Under the pieces are notes generated by a model. That model saw only the letters and a program-made list of their open reading frames with translations. It had not been told where the DNA came from and did not search any database. Shown here in pieces: positions 6,433-15,048 of a DNA stretch of 34,039 bases. Positions within the stretch are counted from its first letter, which is position 1, and each line of letters starts with the position of its first letter. This DNA is from Chthoniobacterales bacterium (GTDB taxonomy: Bacteria; Verrucomicrobiota; Verrucomicrobiia; Chthoniobacterales; UBA6821): positions 1 through 34,039 of the forward strand of contig JAPJNA010000004.1 in NCBI GenBank assembly GCA_026461395.1. The letters run 5' to 3'. The position numbers were made by a program, and so were the translations under genes.

Positions 6433-8253
6433 ATGGGGAACTTGCCTGACTTATTTGAAGAACTGAAGTCTGCAGTGCTTTGCGGTGATGGCGCGATGGG
6501 CACGCTCCTGGCCGAGAGGGGCGTTCCTGCTGGAAACTGCTTTGAGGAGCTCTGCCTCTCCCAACCGGAAACAATCTCCTCCATTCACCGCGAATACCTG
6601 GATGCCGGAGCACAACTCATCACCACCAACTCCTTCGGAGCGAATGCACGCAAGCTGCTCACGTTCGGTCTCGAAGGACGGGTTGGCGACATCAACAGAG
6701 CGGCCGCCCGCTTGGCTCGGGAGGCTGTGGATGCCTCCGGTAGGCCGGCTCTGGTTGCCGGAAGTGTGGGTCCCCTTGGTTCTCACCAAGCGGAAGCCGG
6801 CCAGAACCCAGCAGTTCTTTTCCGAGAGCAGATCAGCGGACTGCTCGAAGGAGGTGCGGATCTGATCCTGCTGGAGACCTTCCAGGATCCCGAGGAGCTC
6901 TCGCTAGCACTGCAAGTGGCCAAATCTCTCGGCAACAAGCCGGTCATCACCCTGATCGCCTCTCCCGAGAGCGGTCGCCTGCCCGGCGGAGCCTGGATCG
7001 GCGATGTCCTGGAATCCCTTGGCGAACAAGGTGCGGACCTGGTCGGTCTGAACTGCGTGAATGGTCCCCAGGCGATGCTCCGTCTTGTCGAAAAAATTGC
7101 GCCATCCCGCCCTCTCGCCGTCTATCCGAATGCCGGACGACCCACCTATCAGGAAGGACGTATCGCTTACGGCACGACGCCAGAATATTTCGCCGATCTA
7201 GGCCGCCGGATGGCTGAGACAGGTGCCGCCTTGGTCGGTGGATGCTGCGGAACATCTCCTCTTCATATCAAGGCGCTCAGCAAAGCGCTGCAAGGACTCA
7301 AACCGACAACACGACATACAACGGGAGTCGTCACCAGTCTAGAACCACCCCCGACCCCGGAACCCACCGAGAAAAGCATTCTCGACCTGATCGCCGGGGG
7401 AAAGACCGTGATCGTCACGGAACTGGATCCTCCAAAGACACTCCCTTTGGAAAAATTCTTCACTGCCGCCGAAGCCCTTACTCGGGCGGGAAGTGACGCT
7501 ATCACCCTGGCAGACAATTCACTCGCTATCCTGAGGGTCAGCAATTTCGCTGTAGCCGCAATGTTGAAGCAACGGGGAATCACCCCCCTTCTGCACGTGA
7601 GTTGCCGAGATCGCAATGTCATCGGCCTCCAGAGTGAACTCCTTGGCATGGCCGCGATGGGAATGCGCCATGTGCTCGCCCTGACAGGAGACCCCGCGAA
7701 GGGAGGAGACCATCCCGACGCAACCTCCGTTTATGATGTGAACTCCGTCGGTCTTCTGGAGATCATCCGCAGACTGAATGAAGGATACACGCTGGCGGGG
7801 ACCGACCTTCAGGCGCGGCCCGATCTTATTGCGGGATGCACCTTCAATCCCAACGCCCGGAGTCTCGACACCCAGATCCAGCGCCTCGAGCGCAAGATCA
7901 ATGCCGGCGCGCGCTATGTGATGACCCAGCCGGTCTTTGAAACCGCCTTGGTCGAAGAGACCGCCAAACGGACGGCTCACTTTGGAGTGCCGGTCTTTAT
8001 CGGCGTCTGGCCACTGCTCAACGGACGCCAGGCCAAGTTCCTCCATAACGAGGTGCCGGGCATCACGATCCCCGTTCCCGTCATGGCCAGGATGGAAGGT
8101 CTCGAAGGTGCCGAGGGACGCAAGGAAGGCGTGAACGTCGCCAAGGAAGTCGCCCGCGCCGTTCTGGACCACTTCCCCGGGATTTATTTTATGACTCCGT
8201 TCTTGGCCTACCAGACCACCGAGGAACTCTCAGCATTCGTCAGAGGTAGATAG
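6433..8253 (+). CDS. Bifunctional homocysteine S-methyltransferase / methylenetetrahydrofolate reductase
   Basis: The 606-residue protein fuses two methionine-cycle enzymes. Residues about 1-290 form a homocysteine S-methyltransferase barrel with the zinc ligands Cys208 (GLNCVNGP) and Cys271-Cys272 (VGGCCGT). Residues about 325-606 match MetF-type methylenetetrahydrofolate reductase, with VTELDPPK, LALTGDPAKGGDH and MTQPVFE motifs. The fusion could make methyl-THF and methylate homocysteine, but the methyl donor of the first domain may instead be S-methylmethionine or SAM. A similar domain order is known in Bacillus YitJ. No SAM riboswitch-like leader fits in the 17-bp gap upstream. Confidence 0.93.
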   Translation: MGNLPDLFEELKSAVLCGDGAMGTLLAERGVPAGNCFEELCLSQPETISSIHREYLDAGAQLITTNSFGANARKLLTFGLEGRVGDINRAAARLAREAVDASGRPALVAGSVGPLGSHQAEAGQNPAVLFREQISGLLEGGADLILLETFQDPEELSLALQVAKSLGNKPVITLIASPESGRLPGGAWIGDVLESLGEQGADLVGLNCVNGPQAMLRLVEKIAPSRPLAVYPNAGRPTYQEGRIAYGTTPEYFADLGRRMAETGAALVGGCCGTSPLHIKALSKALQGLKPTTRHTTGVVTSLEPPPTPEPTEKSILDLIAGGKTVIVTELDPPKTLPLEKFFTAAEALTRAGSDAITLADNSLAILRVSNFAVAAMLKQRGITPLLHVSCRDRNVIGLQSELLGMAAMGMRHVLALTGDPAKGGDHPDATSVYDVNSVGLLEIIRRLNEGYTLAGTDLQARPDLIAGCTFNPNARSLDTQIQRLERKINAGARYVMTQPVFETALVEETAKRTAHFGVPVFIGVWPLLNGRQAKFLHNEVPGITIPVPVMARMEGLEGAEGRKEGVNVAKEVARAVLDHFPGIYFMTPFLAYQTTEELSAFVRGR

Positions 8254-8548
8254 GGCTGCGAAGCCGCCTAGGCAGGAGAGAGCAACTCGTGAGAACTCGC
8301 ATTCAAATGCGAGGAAACGAGAGAAGACCAAAGGGCTTTTGGGTTAATCCGCAGAAAGCGTGGTTTGCGCATTTAGCCATTTTACGTATGCAAAAACATC
8401 ACATCACTCCAATCACATATCGACTCCATGCAATGACGAAAACCTATGGTTAATCAGGAATAGCTCCCCCTTTAGAGGCTTGTTTAAAGGGAATCTATGG
8501 CGTTTTTCTTCTGTATTGTGAGAGTTTCATTTTGTACTAGTGTTTCTT
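8254..8548. other. Chromosomal flank left of the integrated element
   Basis: No gene is seen between the methyltransferase stop and the left attachment repeat. The region holds a strong hairpin (8286-8321, listed separately). It is AT-richer toward its right end, where the original tRNA-Arg promoter should lie. A TACTAG hexamer at 8535-8540, 12 bp before the tRNA fragment, is a plausible -10 element, but no well-spaced -35 is visible. Confidence 0.4.
8286..8321 (+). terminator. Hairpin downstream of the methyltransferase/reductase gene
   Basis: CTCGCATT (8296-8303) pairs perfectly with AATGCGAG (8306-8313). An outer stem, CTCGT (8286-8290) with ACGAG (8317-8321), extends it across a small internal loop. 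No U-tract follows, so it is either a weak or factor-assisted terminator, or an mRNA 3'-end stabiliser. Its position 33 bp after the stop codon fits either role. Confidence 0.45.
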
Positions 8549-8591
8549 CTTTGCGCCCGTAGCTCATCGGATAGAGCAGGGGTTTTCTAAA
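8549..8591 (+). repeat. attL, left copy of the 43-bp direct repeat
   Basis: This copy is identical over 43 bp to 14969-15011. It covers 4 bp upstream of the tRNA plus tRNA positions 1-39, i.e. through the anticodon loop to the first base of the 3' anticodon stem. Identity ends at 8592 (A, against C at 15012). The chromosomal side is to the left, so this is the tRNA 5' half that belonged to the original host gene. Confidence 0.93.
8553..8591 (+). pseudogene. tRNA-Arg(UCU) 5' half, displaced by integration
   Basis: Positions 1-39 of tRNA-Arg(UCU) are intact, but the sequence then diverges into element DNA, so the acceptor, T-arm and anticodon stems cannot close. It is not a functional tRNA. 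The original promoter upstream (8400-8548) presumably still transcribes it, which could yield a short tRNA-half-like RNA; that is speculation. Confidence 0.9.
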
Positions 8592-9159
8592 ACGATCAGG
8601 CAGTGAGTCTATGCATTTCCTGAAATGTCGGGAAACCATTACTGAAAGAGGGGAAAGCAGCAGCAGTGACCGGGAAGCCTGATTTCATAAGCCTGCACAG
8701 ACATTCCCGAAACTTGCACAATTCTTTCACCCCCTTTTTCCAAGGGTCTGATTGACCCTAGGAACCATCCACAGACGCCAGAAAGATTCTGATAACCCTT
8801 TGTTTCAGCGGTTTCCACAGACCAGGAGCAGCACCCACTGGGCCTTTGTGCAAGCGCCTGTGCAAGTTTCCTATCGTTTACCCCTCCCCCCTTTACTTTC
8901 TTAACGACGGTTTCTGTCACCGGGGAGACATCACAGAACGATCAGCCAAAGCCGGGAAGCCCTTAGGATTTCCCCGGAAGCGCTGAGGAAATAGCCCGGA
9001 AGCAAAGGAAGCATTTCAGCTTCCCTCAAGTTTCAGGATGCGCTCTCTCTTATAAAGAGGCAGTGCGCACAACCGCAGGAGATATATCACTCGAAAAGAT
9101 TACTTACCACGGGGGGGCGCCGGGTAGGTAGTGAGCAAAGAACGACATAGCCCACACGC
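8592..9159. other. Non-coding, repeat-rich left end of the element
   Basis: No credible gene is present in about 570 bp. It contains CTTGCACA at 8713-8720 and the inverted pair TGTGCAAG at 8847-8854 and 8859-8866. GGAAGC-centred repeats occur at 8671-8679 and 8953-8961 (CGGGAAGCC) and at 8974-8981 and 8996-9003 (CCGGAAGC). AACGATCAG is repeated at 8591-8599 and 8937-8945. By analogy with P4-type elements such a region may contain the replication origin, integrase arm sites or a packaging signal. No function can be proven from sequence. Confidence 0.5.
8847..8866 (-). promoter_or_regulatory. Candidate integrase arm-type sites, left end
   Basis: Two copies of TGTGCAAG start exactly 12 bp apart (8847 and 8859). 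They mirror, in inverted orientation, the pair CTTGCACA (14899) and CTCGCACA (14911) next to the integrase start, which have the same 12-bp spacing. Paired short repeats on both sides of an att core are the usual layout of tyrosine-integrase arm sites. An origin iteron role is the alternative. Confidence 0.45.
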
Positions 9160-9171
9160 TCACCTGCCTAC
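9124..9171 (-). terminator. Hairpin at the end of the HNH gene
   Basis: GTAGG and GTGAGC (9124-9136) can pair with GCTCAC and CCTAC (9158-9171) with a small internal loop and a loop of about 21 nt. It overlaps the HNH stop codon, so it would end the minus-strand operon of the element. No T-run follows, which weakens a simple Rho-independent reading. Confidence 0.35.
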
Positions 9172-9576
9172 ACAGGACTGAAAGCGTTCAGCGGCATCAT
9201 CAGGCCAATCGCAGGGATCTTCACCAAACACCCTAGCACACCATGCAGCCTCACCAGCATCACCACCACCACCCCAGCGACGCCGGGTCCATCTCTTCCT
9301 TTCCATGTCAGCAATACGGTGGCAGGAACCGCAAAGCGCCTGCAGATCATCCATCAATTCCCGTCCAAACCGCTCATAAGTCAGGTGATGAACTTCAAAG
9401 CGGCGGGTTTTCTTAAAGCAGCGCTCACAGAATCCCCCAGCCCTCTTGATAACCGGGATACGATAATGAGGGTGCCAGTCAGCCCGACTCATTCTCAGTG
9501 AGTATGACCGAAAGGTGGGGGGATCTTGGGGAAATGGTTTTTCCCCTTCATGGGAAAATAGGAAGTCTTGTTTCAT
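9160..9576 (-). CDS. HNH endonuclease
   Basis: The 138-residue protein has a zinc-ribbon HNH domain. C50-x2-C53 and C82-x2-C85 can hold the structural zinc, and His63-His64 in FEVHHLTYERFG plus His86 form the catalytic and metal site. Single HNH proteins of this size are common in phages beside terminase genes and in satellites, where they assist DNA packaging or cleave DNA. Here no terminase is nearby, so the role is open. The start ATG at 9576 is preceded by CAGGAG 11 bp upstream on the minus strand. It is the last gene of the minus-strand run after the primase-helicase, separated by 175 bp containing several scattered GTGAC/GTCAC words. Confidence 0.87.
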   Translation of the reverse strand: MKQDFLFSHEGEKPFPQDPPTFRSYSLRMSRADWHPHYRIPVIKRAGGFCERCFKKTRRFEVHHLTYERFGRELMDDLQALCGSCHRIADMERKRWTRRRWGGGGDAGEAAWCARVFGEDPCDWPDDAAERFQSCVGR

Positions 9577-9751
9577 TATTTATAAATCTCCTGAAAAGAA
9601 CCGTCACTACTGTCACAACTCCTGAAACCCCTTATAGAATCAGGCCGGGAGCGGTGACGGGCACAGAACCGGGCGCCGTCATTCTGCGTCACACTCCCTC
9701 CCGTGACAGTGCCACGGGGAGAGAAAACAGCGAGGGGCGGGAGAGACGCCA

Positions 9752-12130
9752 TCATGAGTTGAGGGAAGGGGGTTGAATGATCCACGCCCGTTTCTTTCCA
9801 GTCCGTTTCAGGTGGAACCGTTCAGGGAACTTTTTCTCTAGTTTCCCCAGCAGGCGTCCACTCTGTTCAGCGGCACCGTCTAAGAGCTTCCGGGCGCTCA
9901 TGTAGCCCTTTGAGTTTTGATCAGTCAGCTTGTCCCTCAACTCCGTTGCGCTGCCCTCCCACGGGTTGAACCCCCCTGATCCATCGTCCTTAAAGTCCAG
10001 TGCTGAGGAACCAAACAGAACTTCATCTACCAGCGACAGCAGCAGTGATTCAGGCTCTTGATCAAAAAGCAGTTCCTCTATCTCCACATCCACATAGGAA
10101 CGGACCCCGTAGCGGCGATCCTTAAGCGATTCTGGAACCTCCAAAGAAAGCAGGTGATCACAAAATGACGGCAACTGCTTTTCAACGGCTGAAATGAAGC
10201 AGTCAAGCGGGTCCGTCTCGCCATCATACCGGGCAAAGAAATCCTCTTTACCTGTTTTGAGCAGCAGCAATTTATCCCTGAAATCCGTTGTCAGCGGGGG
10301 CAGGCAGCGCAGGCGCTCAGGCTCATCGTTGAGTGATATGCTCAGGCGCCACTGCGGTTTCACCGTCACGGCAACCTTGTTTTTCTCGTGCAGGCGCTGG
10401 GAATGGTTCACGCACAGTTCCTTGATCCTTTCACCCAGTGTCAGTCTGTCATCATAACGGACAGAGCTTGGGATTTCCTCAATCTTTAGATGCTCACTGG
10501 CAATCATTTCAGAGTTAAAATCCGTCTTTTCGCTCAGGTAGCTTTTAGGGTCTGCCTCCCGGCCTGCAAGAACTGCGGTGATGATCTTAGACTGCAGCAC
10601 TGATTTTCCCTTTCCAGAGGGACCACACAGGACCAGCGCCTGCCCGTGACGGCGCTGATTAGAGCGCAGCGCCTCATAGCCAACCTTTAGCCACAGACGA
10701 AAGCGCAAAGATCCATCATCACCCAGCAGCGTCTGCAAGAAATCCAGGATCGTTTCACACTCACCGGGGGCAGGCTCAATCAGCTTAGGGGTGGATACCA
10801 CGAGCAACCGGGCGCCTCCTTCCTGATAAAATCCAGCCTTCACCCCAGCGACAGAAGCAACTGCGTCCACATATCGCATCTTAACCACATGATTCAGCAC
10901 ACGGTCCACCTGCCCGGGGATCGTGCCTCCTGCGGGATCGTCCGGGAGCTTCAGCGGTTTATTACTCAGGCCAAAATCCACACGCAGAAAGCGTCCTATC
11001 TCAGCCTGATTCAGTTCACTAAAACCGTCGTCACCTTCCCGTCTGAAATAGTACTTTGACCCCTTCCACCAGAGATCCAGTTTTTCAATCACTTCCATCG
11101 GATCAAAGACAACAGCAGCGCCGGGAGCCTCCGGGGGCAGCACTTCCGGGGTGATGACCCGCACCGGAAGTGGCATTTCCTCAGCGGCGGCAATACAGTT
11201 CAGGAGATCGGATCGGGTGAAACCTGCTTTCTGTGCATCGTTTAAATCTTTGTGCCCGGCGGGGAGACGGACCACAGAAACGGGGACCACAGCAGCAGAG
11301 ATGACATCCTGCAGCCACTTCTCAGCCGGGTTTTTCCCGTTCTTTGTCTCATCATTCTGCATCACCACCACTAGCGATCCCGAACTGCAAAGCCCGGACC
11401 ACTTGCCATTCTCAGCGCCACGGGTGGCAATGAAGCACAGACGCTCATCCGGGGGAACTCCCATCAGATCCATGAAGGAAAAGAGATCCCACTGTGATTC
11501 TGCCAGCACAGTTTCCCGAGCTGATGAGGGATCACCAATGACCAGCGGCTGAGATCCAATCCCCTTGGGAGTATAAATCCATCCTTTCCCATCCTCCCGG
11601 CGAACATGAGCGCCAATGACGGCGCCCGATTTCTGCACAGGCAAGGCGAACTGCCCCCGGCTCATCCCCAGCAGGGACCGGGAGCGCAGCCACTCCACCA
11701 GCGCAGGAGAATATCCCCGCCATGAGGCAAGCTTTTCCCCAGCGGTTTGATTGAAGGAAGCAGCGCAGCCGATCCAATCAAAGGGAGCAAGGGGAACCAC
11801 AGGCGCCCGGCCTGATCGGTTTCCGGGCGGCAGCGCCACATAGTGCCCGGACATTTCCAAGAACCGCTTCACTGCCTCAGCAGTGCTAAGGTTTTCCAGA
11901 CGCTCAATCAGGGTGATCTCATCCCCTTTAAGATCCTCCCCGGCGCCATGATCTTTCCAGCCCCAGCCATCCGAAAAACTGCAGACTGAAAAGCTGGGGT
12001 TTTTCTCATCAGGCCGAAACGGGGATTTCATACTGCCACCGTGTGAGGGGCAGGCATGACCGTAACGGGCAAGCAGATCGGGGAGCGGCAAGCGTTGCTT
12101 TGCTGCGGTGATTTCAGGGGAATTACTCAT
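9752..12130 (-). CDS. Primase-helicase fusion (TOPRIM primase + SF3-type helicase), P4 alpha-like
   Basis: This 792-residue replication protein starts with a CHC2-like primase zinc region (residues 22-65, CPSHGG, PFRPDEKNPSFSV, GWKDHGAG), although not all usual Cys ligands are visible. A TOPRIM-like domain follows, with AESQWD around 210-215 and VVVMQNDE around 254-261. A P-loop helicase has Walker A GPSGKGKS at 503-510, acidic Walker B residues at 551-552 and an SF3-like segment LSISLNDEPERLRCLPP around 597. A lysine-rich winged-helix-like tail ends it. Such fusions prime and unwind an element's own origin. The ATG overlaps the upstream HTH gene by 8 bp, implying coupled translation and joint control. 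Confidence 0.88.
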   Translation of the reverse strand: MSNSPEITAAKQRLPLPDLLARYGHACPSHGGSMKSPFRPDEKNPSFSVCSFSDGWGWKDHGAGEDLKGDEITLIERLENLSTAEAVKRFLEMSGHYVALPPGNRSGRAPVVPLAPFDWIGCAASFNQTAGEKLASWRGYSPALVEWLRSRSLLGMSRGQFALPVQKSGAVIGAHVRREDGKGWIYTPKGIGSQPLVIGDPSSARETVLAESQWDLFSFMDLMGVPPDERLCFIATRGAENGKWSGLCSSGSLVVVMQNDETKNGKNPAEKWLQDVISAAVVPVSVVRLPAGHKDLNDAQKAGFTRSDLLNCIAAAEEMPLPVRVITPEVLPPEAPGAAVVFDPMEVIEKLDLWWKGSKYYFRREGDDGFSELNQAEIGRFLRVDFGLSNKPLKLPDDPAGGTIPGQVDRVLNHVVKMRYVDAVASVAGVKAGFYQEGGARLLVVSTPKLIEPAPGECETILDFLQTLLGDDGSLRFRLWLKVGYEALRSNQRRHGQALVLCGPSGKGKSVLQSKIITAVLAGREADPKSYLSEKTDFNSEMIASEHLKIEEIPSSVRYDDRLTLGERIKELCVNHSQRLHEKNKVAVTVKPQWRLSISLNDEPERLRCLPPLTTDFRDKLLLLKTGKEDFFARYDGETDPLDCFISAVEKQLPSFCDHLLSLEVPESLKDRRYGVRSYVDVEIEELLFDQEPESLLLSLVDEVLFGSSALDFKDDGSGGFNPWEGSATELRDKLTDQNSKGYMSARKLLDGAAEQSGRLLGKLEKKFPERFHLKRTGKKRAWIIQPPSLNS

Positions 12131-12452
12131 GACCGGGCAGGTGTTTGGGGACCGTTCCCGGCGAACTCTCCCGATTCCATCCGAGCGTTGAACCGGGCAA
12201 TTCCTCCCGGGTGATGTAGTGACGACCAGCGATCACGCAGGTTTTCAGCCATCCCTTTTTCCTGAACCTCCAAAGCGTCACGGGTGAAAGCCCGGATTGC
12301 TGCACAAAGCAGTCCATGGAAATCGGGGGGTGCGCTTCCAGTGGGATCGTCTCGTGTGCTGGGGTTGTATTGATCCCCGGTGACAGGGGGTGATGCGCTG
12401 CAAGGGAGATGCCTCCCTGAGCGCTTAATGTAGTTGTGATGTTTCTTGGCAT
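12123..12452 (-). CDS. Small helix-turn-helix protein (excisionase/AlpA-like)
   Basis: The 109-residue protein has a MerR/excisionase-type HTH in its second half, beginning near residue 46 (MDCFVQQSGLSPVTLWRFRKKGWL, given here only as the motif region), with a wing ITREEL. Such proteins near a primase in satellites act as excisionase or transcription activator. The N-terminal 45 residues are low-complexity and unlike the family, so the true start may be the internal ATG at 12317. No ribosome binding site supports the ATG at 12452, which lies inside an inverted repeat. The gene overlaps the primase-helicase start. Confidence 0.7.
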   Translation of the reverse strand: MPRNITTTLSAQGGISLAAHHPLSPGINTTPAHETIPLEAHPPISMDCFVQQSGLSPVTLWRFRKKGWLKTCVIAGRHYITREELPGSTLGWNRESSPGTVPKHLPGHE

Positions 12453-12507
12453 GACAAGAAAGGGGGGCTTGTCAAAGTGCCCGGTTAATGGTTAATGATC
12501 AAACACT
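12452..12507. promoter_or_regulatory. Divergent control region with inverted repeat and tandem 7-mers
   Basis: Between the two divergent HTH genes lies TGACAAG (12452-12458) and CTTGTCA (12468-12474), a perfect 7-bp inverted repeat with a 9-bp spacer. It is followed by two tandem GGTTAAT copies (12483-12496). The layout suggests an operator bound by one of the flanking HTH proteins, giving a two-way switch between replication and quiescence. The function is inferred. Confidence 0.5.
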
Positions 12508-12981
12508 GTGAAATCCGAAAAACAGCAGCTTTTAGCACCCCGGCAAGCGGCAGCACTGGCAGGAGTTTCCACGGTTGCGATATGGAAGGCCCAGCAGCGG
12601 GGAGAGATCCGGGCGGCTGCGTTCAAATCAAGGGGGGCGCTTTATGACCGGGCAGACATTAAGGAATGGATGAGGTGCAGGAGGATCAGGCAGCGCAGGA
12701 GCAAGGTGAGTCTGAAACTGAACCCCGGGAAGGCAACGGGCTTCCTATCCATCGAAGGGATATCGGGGGGATTCGGCATCTGGCATCGCAGAATGGCTAG
12801 GGAGATTCCGTCATGGGGTGAGGCCGAAATCTCACGAGCGGTGGAGCTTCTACTGCCGATAGCGGAGCTATGGGCAGAGCTACACCACAGGGAAGAACCT
12901 TTCAGGGTAGCCCGGGAAAAAGTGCAGGTGACGGCAGATAAGCGGCGGGAACTAAGACGCCTCTCAGCAGTTTCTGATTAG
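12508..12981 (+). CDS. HTH DNA-binding protein, probable element regulator
   Basis: The 157-residue protein starts at a GTG (12508). Its N-terminal domain, residues about 8-56, is a MerR/excisionase-type winged HTH (LLAPRQAAALAGVSTVAIWK, then ALYDRADIKEWM). A basic linker rich in Arg and Lys follows, and a C-terminal helical part has no recognised relatives. Placed divergently from the small HTH and primase genes, it could be the repressor or activator of the element. There is no clear ribosome binding site. The GTG start is chosen because it precedes the HTH fold by a normal distance. Confidence 0.65.
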   Translation: MKSEKQQLLAPRQAAALAGVSTVAIWKAQQRGEIRAAAFKSRGALYDRADIKEWMRCRRIRQRRSKVSLKLNPGKATGFLSIEGISGGFGIWHRRMAREIPSWGEAEISRAVELLLPIAELWAELHHREEPFRVAREKVQVTADKRRELRRLSAVSD

Positions 12982-13074
12982 TGACAGCAAATAAGCGCCC
13001 GGTGACACTTCCCGGCAGCTAATCCTCCCCACTTAAACCTCTGTGCAGCAGCGCCTCAGGATGATTAGTGACAG
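12975..13074 (+). repeat. 13-bp direct repeat pair between regulator and lipoprotein genes
   Basis: TGATTAGTGACAG occurs at 12975-12987 (overlapping the regulator stop codon) and again at 13062-13074, with another GTGACA at about 13002 and GTGACG at about 13078. Clustered copies upstream of the lipoprotein gene suggest a binding site for an element regulator, or a footprint of a past insertion or duplication. Confidence 0.45.
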
Positions 13075-13147
13075 AAGTGACGGTTATTTTGGGATTTTCC
13101 TTGTGAGAGCTAAGGTAAATGCCCTAGAAAGCACAACGTCCTATAAA

Positions 13148-13564
13148 ATGAGCGCGAAAATCAAAGTTCTACTCGGGTTTGTAACGCTCACTGCTTTAGT
13201 AGGATGCGTTTCACCTTATGCTGCACAGATCAGCAGCTTAGACAAAGATTACAAGGCTGGGAAAATAAACGCCACCGATTACTACACATTGCGGCAGTCT
13301 ATCGCTTATCAAGATGCACAGTGGCATGAAGCATCTAACGATAAATTTGGGAAAGCTTTAACTGCAGGTCTTATGGGAGGAGCTGCAGGCGTACAGGCAG
13401 GGCAACAACAACGGAGAGAGGATGCGGCTATCAACGCCTACAATTACAGAACACAGGTTCTAGCTCAACCTCAGACCTATAATGTTAACGAAAATATCAA
13501 CGCTACCGTTAATGCAAATATTAATCAGACCGTTAACGGAACAATGTATTTGAAAGGGTACTAA
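13148..13564 (+). CDS. Element-encoded lipoprotein of unknown function (probable cargo)
   Basis: The preferred ATG at 13148 gives 138 residues with a lipoprotein signal (MSAKIKVLLGFVTLTALVGC, lipidated Cys20). Further in-frame start codons upstream would add 35 residues before the signal peptide and are rejected. The segment DKDYKAGKINATDYYTLRQS resembles short SHOCT-like helical motifs. A Gly/Ala stretch follows (GLMGGAAGVQAG) and an Asn-rich tail with NVNENINATVNANINQTVN. The gene is visibly more AT-rich than its neighbours, consistent with recent acquisition as cargo. A membrane lipoprotein on a prophage-like element could act in superinfection exclusion or lysogenic conversion, but that is inference. 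Its stop overlaps the convergent integrase stop by 4 bp. Confidence 0.72.
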   Translation: MSAKIKVLLGFVTLTALVGCVSPYAAQISSLDKDYKAGKINATDYYTLRQSIAYQDAQWHEASNDKFGKALTAGLMGGAAGVQAGQQQRREDAAINAYNYRTQVLAQPQTYNVNENINATVNANINQTVNGTMYLKGY

Positions 13565-14889
13565 CAAATAGCTGTCCCCGCGCACCGGGGGACCACTGAA
13601 AAGCCAACCTGCACCTTGGCAGCTTGCTCGTGCAGGTGATCGTCCAGCAGGTGAGAATAAGTCTGCATGATGAGTTTTCCACCGTCCCCATGACCGACCC
13701 ATTTAGCAACGGTTCCCACATCAGTTCCACCCATGAGACAGGAAGAGATGAAAAGGTGCCTCATATCATGGAACCCTAAGCGCTCGATCCCGGCAGCTTC
13801 TAAGCCACTGGCAAGCGCTCCCCGGAGTGTCGTCACCCTAAGATCCTGTTTACCTCTTCGGGGTGAGGGAAAAAGCCACCGAGAATCAGGCGCCCGGCGG
13901 CTCTTCATGTCCAGCAGATGCGCTTGCAACTGCGGGTTTAACTGAACCTGCCGACCAGTGCCCGTCTTAGTGTCCCCAGCATCACCCAGCATCACCGACC
14001 CGGAGACAAAATCCTCCCCGGCGCCGATATGGAGACAGCAGCGGTTTAAATCCACATGGGACCAGCGCAGTTTTAGCCCTTCCTGTTCCCGGGCGCCCGT
14101 ATAAGCAAGCAGCAGCAAGAAATCGGCAATCTGATCCCCGTTTCGGATTGCCAGCACCTGATCCCCTAGCGCTCCCGTGTGCCGCTCCCGGCAGCACTGG
14201 ATAAGCTGCAGGAACTTGTCAGGCTCAATCAGTGCCCGGCGCTTTGCTTTAGGGATTCCCTTTCTGCCCCACTTGGGAAAATCAGTCTTTTTATTGATCC
14301 ACTTTTTTTCATCTATGGCGAACTGCAGAAAACATCTAAGCGCTACCAGATCATGTTCCACCGTCCGGGGGTGTGCTGCCTTGCGGCTGCGTCCCCCTAT
14401 TGATCCACCAGCAAGACGGCGGCTCTTGAACCCGGAGATCATTTGCGTCGTTATTGCGTCCAGACGGGTATCCCATCCGAAGTGACGCACAAAGAGATCC
14501 AATGAGCGCACTTCCTTGTCCCGGGTGTTTTCTGCCTTCCCTTTGTGCATAGAGCTTTCCAAATATTCTTGCACAGCAGTTTTCAGTCCGGGCTTTCTTC
14601 CTGAACTAGGCAGTGCCCCTTCCCGGCGCTCCTGCTTCAGCTTTTCCAGTGCAGTCTGAGCAGTGGTGAGAGATCGGCAAGGCTCCCTGTTATCATCTAA
14701 GAGGGGAAACCGTCGTGCCCCTTTGCGCCCGTCATCCTTGACCACCCAGAGCAGAGCATAAAAGCGCCCGTTGCGCTCCTGCAGCCCCTTTACTCTGCGA
14801 TTGCGATAATCACGGGCTGGGGTAAACTGCCCGGCATGATCCTTGGAACCCTTTGCCTGTGTGCTTTCAGCGCTTTCAGTGCCTTTCAT
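13561..14889 (-). CDS. int: Tyrosine recombinase (site-specific integrase)
   Basis: The phage-type integrase has an N-terminal arm-binding region, a SAM-like core-binding domain around residues 95-190 and a catalytic domain. In the 442-residue form the catalytic residues are Arg267 (YTGAREQEGLKLRW), Lys308, His374 and Arg377 (HDMRHLF), His400 (WVGHGD) and the nucleophile Tyr411 (QTYSHLL). All are present, so the enzyme should be active. The ATG at 14889 is preferred because an AAGAG precedes it and the upstream 12 residues from an alternative start at 14925 overlap candidate arm sites. The gene lies beside attR, pointing away from the tRNA. Confidence 0.95.
   Translation of the reverse strand: MKGTESAESTQAKGSKDHAGQFTPARDYRNRRVKGLQERNGRFYALLWVVKDDGRKGARRFPLLDDNREPCRSLTTAQTALEKLKQERREGALPSSGRKPGLKTAVQEYLESSMHKGKAENTRDKEVRSLDLFVRHFGWDTRLDAITTQMISGFKSRRLAGGSIGGRSRKAAHPRTVEHDLVALRCFLQFAIDEKKWINKKTDFPKWGRKGIPKAKRRALIEPDKFLQLIQCCRERHTGALGDQVLAIRNGDQIADFLLLLAYTGAREQEGLKLRWSHVDLNRCCLHIGAGEDFVSGSVMLGDAGDTKTGTGRQVQLNPQLQAHLLDMKSRRAPDSRWLFPSPRRGKQDLRVTTLRGALASGLEAAGIERLGFHDMRHLFISSCLMGGTDVGTVAKWVGHGDGGKLIMQTYSHLLDDHLHEQAAKVQVGFSVVPRCAGTAIC
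13574..13593 (+). terminator. GC-rich hairpin just after the lipoprotein gene
   Basis: GTCCCCG (13574-13580) pairs with CGGGGGAC (13586-13593), with one bulged G and a 5-nt loop. It starts 10 bp after the lipoprotein stop but lies within the integrase 3' end, so it could end the plus-strand transcript. No T-run follows. Confidence 0.4.
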
Positions 14890-14898
14890 ATCACCACT

Positions 14899-14918
14899 CT
14901 TGCACAAACCCTCGCACA
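14899..14918 (+). promoter_or_regulatory. Candidate integrase arm-type sites, right end
   Basis: CTTGCACA (14899-14906) and CTCGCACA (14911-14918) start 12 bp apart, immediately upstream of the integrase ATG and about 51 bp from the att core. The left end has the same motif pair inverted with the same spacing. Binding here could also autoregulate int. Confidence 0.45.
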
Positions 14919-14968
14919 GAGTCAAGTATCGACATTTCCCATTTCTCCTTTAACTCTGTTAATCAACA

Positions 14969-15011
14969 CTTTGCGCCCGTAGCTCATCGGATAGAGCAGG
15001 GGTTTTCTAAA
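14969..15011 (+). repeat. attR, right copy of the 43-bp direct repeat
   Basis: Identical to 8549-8591. It supplies the 4 bp before the tRNA and tRNA positions 1-39; the 3' half beginning at 15012 is chromosomal. The sequence to the left, including any promoter for the intact tRNA, therefore comes from the element. Confidence 0.93.
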
Positions 15012-15048
15012 CCCTTGGTAGCAGGTTCGATTCCTGCCGGGCGCACCA
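14973..15048 (+). tRNA. tRNA-Arg (anticodon UCU), reconstituted by the element
   Basis: The 76-nt sequence folds as a standard tRNA. The acceptor stem GCGCCCG pairs with CGGGCGC, the D stem is GCTC/GAGC, and the anticodon stem GGGGT/ACCCT surrounds TTTCTAA with anticodon TCT. The T stem is GCAGG/CCTGC with loop TTCGATT, and CCA is encoded at 15046-15048. It should read AGA (and possibly AGG) arginine codons. Its 5' half and upstream region are provided by the integrated element and its 3' half by the chromosome. The heptosyltransferase-like gene starts 13 bp downstream. Confidence 0.97.

Follow-up and report, generated by a model that had tools for sequence, protein, structure and literature searches.

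Gene content and boundaries of the element

The window, a 34,039-nt stretch of DNA from a Chthoniobacterales bacterium (contig JAPJNA010000004.1, positions 1 to 34,039), contains a single tRNA gene detectable by ARAGORN, tRNA-Arg(UCU) at 14973-15048 (+). A repeat search of the window revealed an exact 43-bp direct repeat (8549-8591 and 14969-15011, spacing 6420), consisting of CTTT followed by nt 1-39 of this tRNA, just as a preliminary description of the sequence had proposed. The tRNA 5' fragment (8553-8591) lies upstream of the intact gene and on the same strand. In shuffled sequence, the best 38-nt matches reached only 21-22 of 38 positions, compared to 38 for the actual repeat; the 43-bp exact match is far beyond chance. 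The 6.4 kb between the fragment and the intact tRNA constitute the element, which includes an integrase gene (Table 1).

The integrase gene is located at the tRNA end of the element and is divergent from the intact tRNA. Its ORF of 454 aa lies wholly inside the element and was not truncated by integration. The catalytic residues R260, K301, H367xxR370, H393 and Y404 (A1 numbering) are invariant in an alignment of related integrases, and this R...K...HxxR...H...Y set together with the Phage_integrase domain identifies the protein as a tyrosine recombinase. Phage satellites and small P4/PICI-like islands are 6-10 kb long and carry an integrase, HTH regulators and a primase-helicase-like gene at a tRNA site. 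The element resembles them in each of these respects, but family searches recognised no packaging or packaging-interference genes in it. A query of viral contigs with the primase-like protein found no relatives, and no free circular form of the element was seen. It is an integrative mobile element, probably a phage satellite or a similar small island.

Table 1. Features of the element and its junctions, with positions in the window.
Feature	Position	Strand	Evidence
Left junction, displaced 5' fragment: CTTT + tRNA-Arg(UCU) nt 1-39	8549..8591	+	Exact 43-bp repeat; homologous junction beside bioB in G009
Integrated element body	8592..14968	.	Not present at the bioB-tRNA-GT9 site of six congeners
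Putative left arm site (CTTGCACA on +)	8713..8720	-	~120 bp (about +121) inside left fragment; similar offset in other elements and G009
Second TGTGCAAG pair, 12-bp spacing	8847..8866	+	Motif search
HNH endonuclease	9160..9576	-	Family match
Primase/helicase-like replication protein, DUF5906-type	9752..12130	-	Weak matches, about 1e-5
Small HTH-like protein, possible excisionase/regulator	12123..12452	-	Sequence only; no family match
HTH_17/MerR-like regulator	12508..12981	+	Family match
Small putative lipoprotein (cargo), beside integrase	13043..13564	+	Lipobox-like LVGC in ORF; no family match
Tyrosine integrase; start codon ATG at 14889, open frame extends to 14925	13561..14889	-	PF00589 7e-16; PHROG integrase 2e-49
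Putative right arm sites in the int-tRNA spacer: TGTGCAAG / TGTGCGAG at 12-bp spacing	14899..14918	-	Pair at this spacing in 89% of 74 homologous spacers
Predicted location of the tRNA promoter or part of it; TGTTAAT ~10 bp ahead of tRNA	14926..14968	+	Sequence; no consensus promoter
Right repeat copy, element-supplied	14969..15011	+	Exact repeat; upstream 14926-14968 differs from empty site
Restored tRNA-Arg(UCU)	14973..15048	+	ARAGORN; genus-wide search

Empty and occupied sites in congeners

The site is empty in six congeners (G001, G002, G004, G006, G008 and G010). In these genomes bioB is followed by a single tRNA-Arg(UCU), which starts a few nucleotides past the bioB stop codon, and then by a glycosyltransferase gene (GT9) that corresponds to the gene right of the tRNA in the window. 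When the closest empty congener was compared to the source genome of the window (G000), identity stopped at the CTTT preceding the tRNA. No additional tRNA-Arg 5' half was found in the six empty-site congeners; such a duplication in element-free relatives is what the preliminary description had named as evidence against integration.

Another congener, G009, has the predicted left junction on contig C21, where bioB is followed by the tRNA 5' half and a homologous element end. This end aligns with the left end of the window's element over ~118 columns with a local score of 30 (best of 200 shuffles, 26), and the alignment ends in an arm-like TAGCACA/TTGCACA site at the same offset as in the window. 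Together, the empty sites and the G009 left junction bear out the proposal that the element brings the tRNA 5' half and everything upstream of it, while the 3' half is chromosomal. In G015, bioB is followed after a gap of ~190 bp by the tRNA 5' half and then by an element with primase-like (DUF5906) and HNH genes; its integrase is 72% identical to that of the window, and the matching right end sits on a separate contig. G012 retains an N-terminal integrase fragment beside the same tRNA-Arg. The occupancy in G009, G015 and G012 therefore indicates that the tRNA-Arg site is used repeatedly.

On a second contig of G009 (L276, C156), the genome that has the window-type left end at bioB, inspection by eye also located the beginning of another, different integrase-like frame, which runs divergently from this tRNA-Arg.

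The left flank of the window is not ancestral

The left repeat copy in the window follows an MTHFR-type gene, whereas the congeners have bioB before the tRNA. The expectation that relatives would have an intact tRNA next to the window's left flank thus held only with bioB as the flanking gene, the window's own flank being rearranged. In the source genome, bioB lies on contig C28, where it is followed by tRNA nt 1-33 and then pdxJ. When the sequences that continue from the two 5' fragments of this genome are swapped, the canonical order seen in G009 returns. The left flank of the window is therefore not ancestral, and the locus was either rearranged or misassembled at the tRNA fragment: the flanks were swapped by a genuine exchange at the att core, or by the assembler at the 37-43 bp repeat. 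The C28 fragment (6946-6982; L003 1501-1537) is a third tRNA-Arg 5' copy in this genome and lies at the rearrangement breakpoint.

Were the left junction produced by the assembler swapping paths at the repeat, the actual order would be bioB, 5' half, element, tRNA and GT9, and MTHFR, 5' half and pdxJ would form a separate locus. We regard this as quite possible, if somewhat short of an even chance. The exchange that returns the G009 order is consistent with it, as is the draft state of the genome (80 contigs), but a real exchange at the att core would yield the same sequence. Furthermore, assemblers with a word length above 43 resolve a 43-bp repeat, and three copies would break contigs more often than swap them. 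An artefact of this kind would alter the left flank only and leave the 5'-restoring layout unaffected.

MTHFR and pdxJ are not neighbours in the relatives compared, and the gene order past each of them differs among relatives. A first element in tandem found no support: the 295 bp that separate the left 5' fragment from the MTHFR-type gene (8254-8548) have no match elsewhere in the genus, and no integrase remnant was visible by eye. If the exchange was real, the integrase may possibly have taken part in it, by analogy with the pTN3 integrase, which drives inversions in vitro and for which a part in genome shuffling has been proposed (PMC5495485).

The 5'-restoring layout is a property of the integrase clade

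We aligned 11 related integrases, scanned the alignment against 84,980 species genomes and took the best 80 loci. ARAGORN placed an intact tRNA immediately upstream of the integrase match in 72 of these 80; in every case the tRNA lies on the opposite strand and turns its 5' end toward the integrase. A tRNA close downstream of the integrase, or upstream in the other orientation, was found in none of the 80 loci. The remaining eight include a tRNA-Leu 5' part cut by a contig end (L178), a tRNA-Leu broken by unread bases (L156) and the contig-end copy of the G015 element (L146). The 72 targets are mostly tRNA-Leu (four anticodons) as well as tRNA-Met and tRNA-Gln, to which the window adds tRNA-Arg. 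A tree of 73 integrases requires 5 changes in target amino-acid identity and 22 in the full target. Near the start of several more distant integrases there is likewise a divergent tRNA-Leu, tRNA-Thr or tRNA-Met.

The far end was assessed in a minority of loci, as most related contigs stop short of it. At least nine elements with the far end found have a 5' tRNA fragment there in the same orientation. The 5'-restoring layout is a property of the clade. Exact tRNA-Leu copies spanning nt 1-38 to 1-40 were found in G004 (C19), G126 (C107), L155 and L166, and repeats of 40-45 nt in G211, G204, G209, G208, G210 and G207, the last being counted on its repeat alone and not on an integrase between the copies. 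The copy in G197 is exact over 30 bp with a few differences beyond. No far-end 5' copy was found on a few long contigs, and no 3'-half tRNA copy was found. Across elements, the exact 5'-half copies measure 38-45 nt and stop at the 3' edge of the anticodon loop or slightly beyond it, which points to a crossover in the loop. This position is also used by 3'-restoring islands, but here attP would carry the other half of the tRNA.

Conserved motifs between the integrase and the tRNA

The spacer between the integrase and the tRNA contains two direct repeats of 8-9 bp at 12-bp spacing in 89% of 74 spacers, with other spacings from 8 to 16 each accounting for at most 3%. In L155, L166, G126 and G004 (C19), the repeat sequence recurs ~124-143 bp inside the left fragment. 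The geometry of the 12-bp-spaced repeats is consistent with integrase arm sites flanking a core. GTAAGT was present in 35% of spacers, mostly 22-24 nt before the tRNA, compared to 1% in shuffles; GTAAGT or GTAAGC preceded 2% of other tRNAs, in a small control set in which some copies are element-adjacent.

Three IMG/VR phage contigs encoding a related integrase (L226, L228 and L229) have, upstream of the integrase gene at about 9600-10000, a 12-bp-spaced pair, GTAAGT and AATCAACG, followed by a tRNA-like 5' half ending in GGGGACTGTCAGTCCC. This region is a candidate free attP.

Expression of the restored tRNA

In most cases the shared repeat begins 0-4 bp ahead of the tRNA, so everything farther upstream is element DNA, which would place the promoter inside the element. 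This argues strongly, from the arrangement of the sequence, that the restored tRNA is expressed from an element promoter, the simplest reading being that it lies in the 83-bp spacer. The elements of G015 and G012 have TGTTAGT/TGATAGT at the position equivalent to TGTTAAT in the window. Scans found no consensus sigma-70 promoter in the spacer or around either tRNA copy, best-TATAAT scores over the 25 nt that precede the tRNA were equal to those of shuffles, and there was no dyad enrichment before the tRNA in the spacers. The genus-wide search found no second UCU tRNA in the source genome assembly, the copy on contig C15 being CCU. As AGA codons are present in the chromosomal genes of this genome, the restored gene is presumably expressed.

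Read-through from distant genes would require no spacer promoter and may be the ancestral mode, given the position of the tRNA a few nucleotides after the bioB stop codon in empty congeners. We consider it improbable at the occupied site. The adjacent integrase gene points away from the tRNA, the nearest recognised gene facing the tRNA, a small ORF that ends at 13564, lies 1.4 kb off, and the same divergent layout recurs in the 72 loci.

Proposed integration mechanism

Very probably, the element's integrase acts on the anticodon-loop region of the tRNA-Arg(UCU) gene, recombining it with an attP that carries CTTT and the tRNA 5' half, and the tRNA is restored from the element side. In this mechanism, the attP half would adjoin the integrase gene and the crossover would probably fall within the loop (nt 32-38). 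The chromosome's original 5' half would end up at the far (left) end, and the chromosomal 3' half would gain the element's copy of the 5' half together with the integrase-tRNA spacer lying upstream of that copy. A spacer promoter, oriented divergently to the integrase gene, would then drive expression. The expected circle junction reads from the integrase side through CTTT and tRNA nt 1-39 into ACGATCAGG. Of this scheme, the repeat, the empty site, the congener left junction and the same layout across the clade were observed.

An ordinary 3'-restoring island, in which the right tRNA and its promoter would both be original and the left fragment a chance or retro-duplicated copy, would agree with the 3760 of 3919 tRNA islands that restore the 3' side (PMC4383910), but it is highly improbable and already contradicted by the empty sites: upstream of the tRNA lies element sequence in the source genome and bioB in the six empty congeners, the common part is the 5' half with no 3'-half copy found, and the layout is repeated in the relatives.

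Relation to known systems and significance

The element belongs to a known rare kind of tRNA island. In Islander, a 5' tDNA fragment marks 159 of 3919 islands, a minority of ~4% (PMC4383910), which confirms the rarity assumed in the preliminary description for islands overall; within this integrase clade the arrangement is the rule. Like the Islander 5'-fragment islands, the element has an intact tRNA, a displaced 5' fragment upstream of the tDNA in the same orientation and an integrase between them; it also lies within the 2-200 kb bounds and has an empty site in relatives. In contrast to that minority layout, a single clade uses it here throughout, with a shared module of integrase, arm sites and tRNA.

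According to a review, restored bacterial tRNAs keep their original promoter with very few exceptions, while archaeal pTN3-like integrases use the tRNA 5' half and the integrase promoter drives the restored tRNA (PMC8371274). The element resembles the pTN3-like integrases of Thermococcales in that their attB is a tRNA 5' half (tRNA-Leu nt 2-44 suffices) (PMC5495485, PMC8371274), and in the link between tRNA genes and genome rearrangement. It differs in that those systems are archaeal and leave the integrated integrase gene in truncated parts, whereas the element's integrase gene is whole. Beyond Islander and the archaeal review, we found nothing direct in the literature on bacterial or Verrucomicrobiota 5'-restoring elements. 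Within the searchable literature, a large Verrucomicrobiota clade that uses the 5' layout as its rule, with a conserved end module, is new.

We put forward, with nearly even confidence, that this large clade is specialised for the tRNA 5' side through a composite end of integrase start, arm-site pair and tRNA promoter, such that the host tRNA would come under an element promoter, loss of the integrase end would be lethal and the att core may seed rearrangements. The usual account is that tRNA islands leave the tRNA under its own promoter; this clade does the opposite in 72 of the 80 sampled loci. Host tRNA expression, mostly of leucine isoacceptors and in the source genome of the only UCU-arginine tRNA found, would hinge on mobile DNA. 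The positions of integrase-side tRNA promoters, and whether such elements become hard to lose, are made testable. A further question is why the 5' side is chosen, given that a crossover at this same place in the anticodon loop could also work for the 3' side.

Two side observations concern the regions upstream of tRNA genes. In G005 (L277, contig C89), a tRNA-Arg at 8331-8410 is preceded by TTGTGCAAAC...GTCAAA and CTGATAATGAAGTGCTTT without an integrase gene; here the element was possibly lost while its upstream region still serves the tRNA. In G210 (L268, C154) and G197 (L257, C37), the sequence leading into the left 5' fragment looks like the element-type region upstream of the intact tRNA, which suggests tandem elements, each of which would have brought a new tRNA upstream region.
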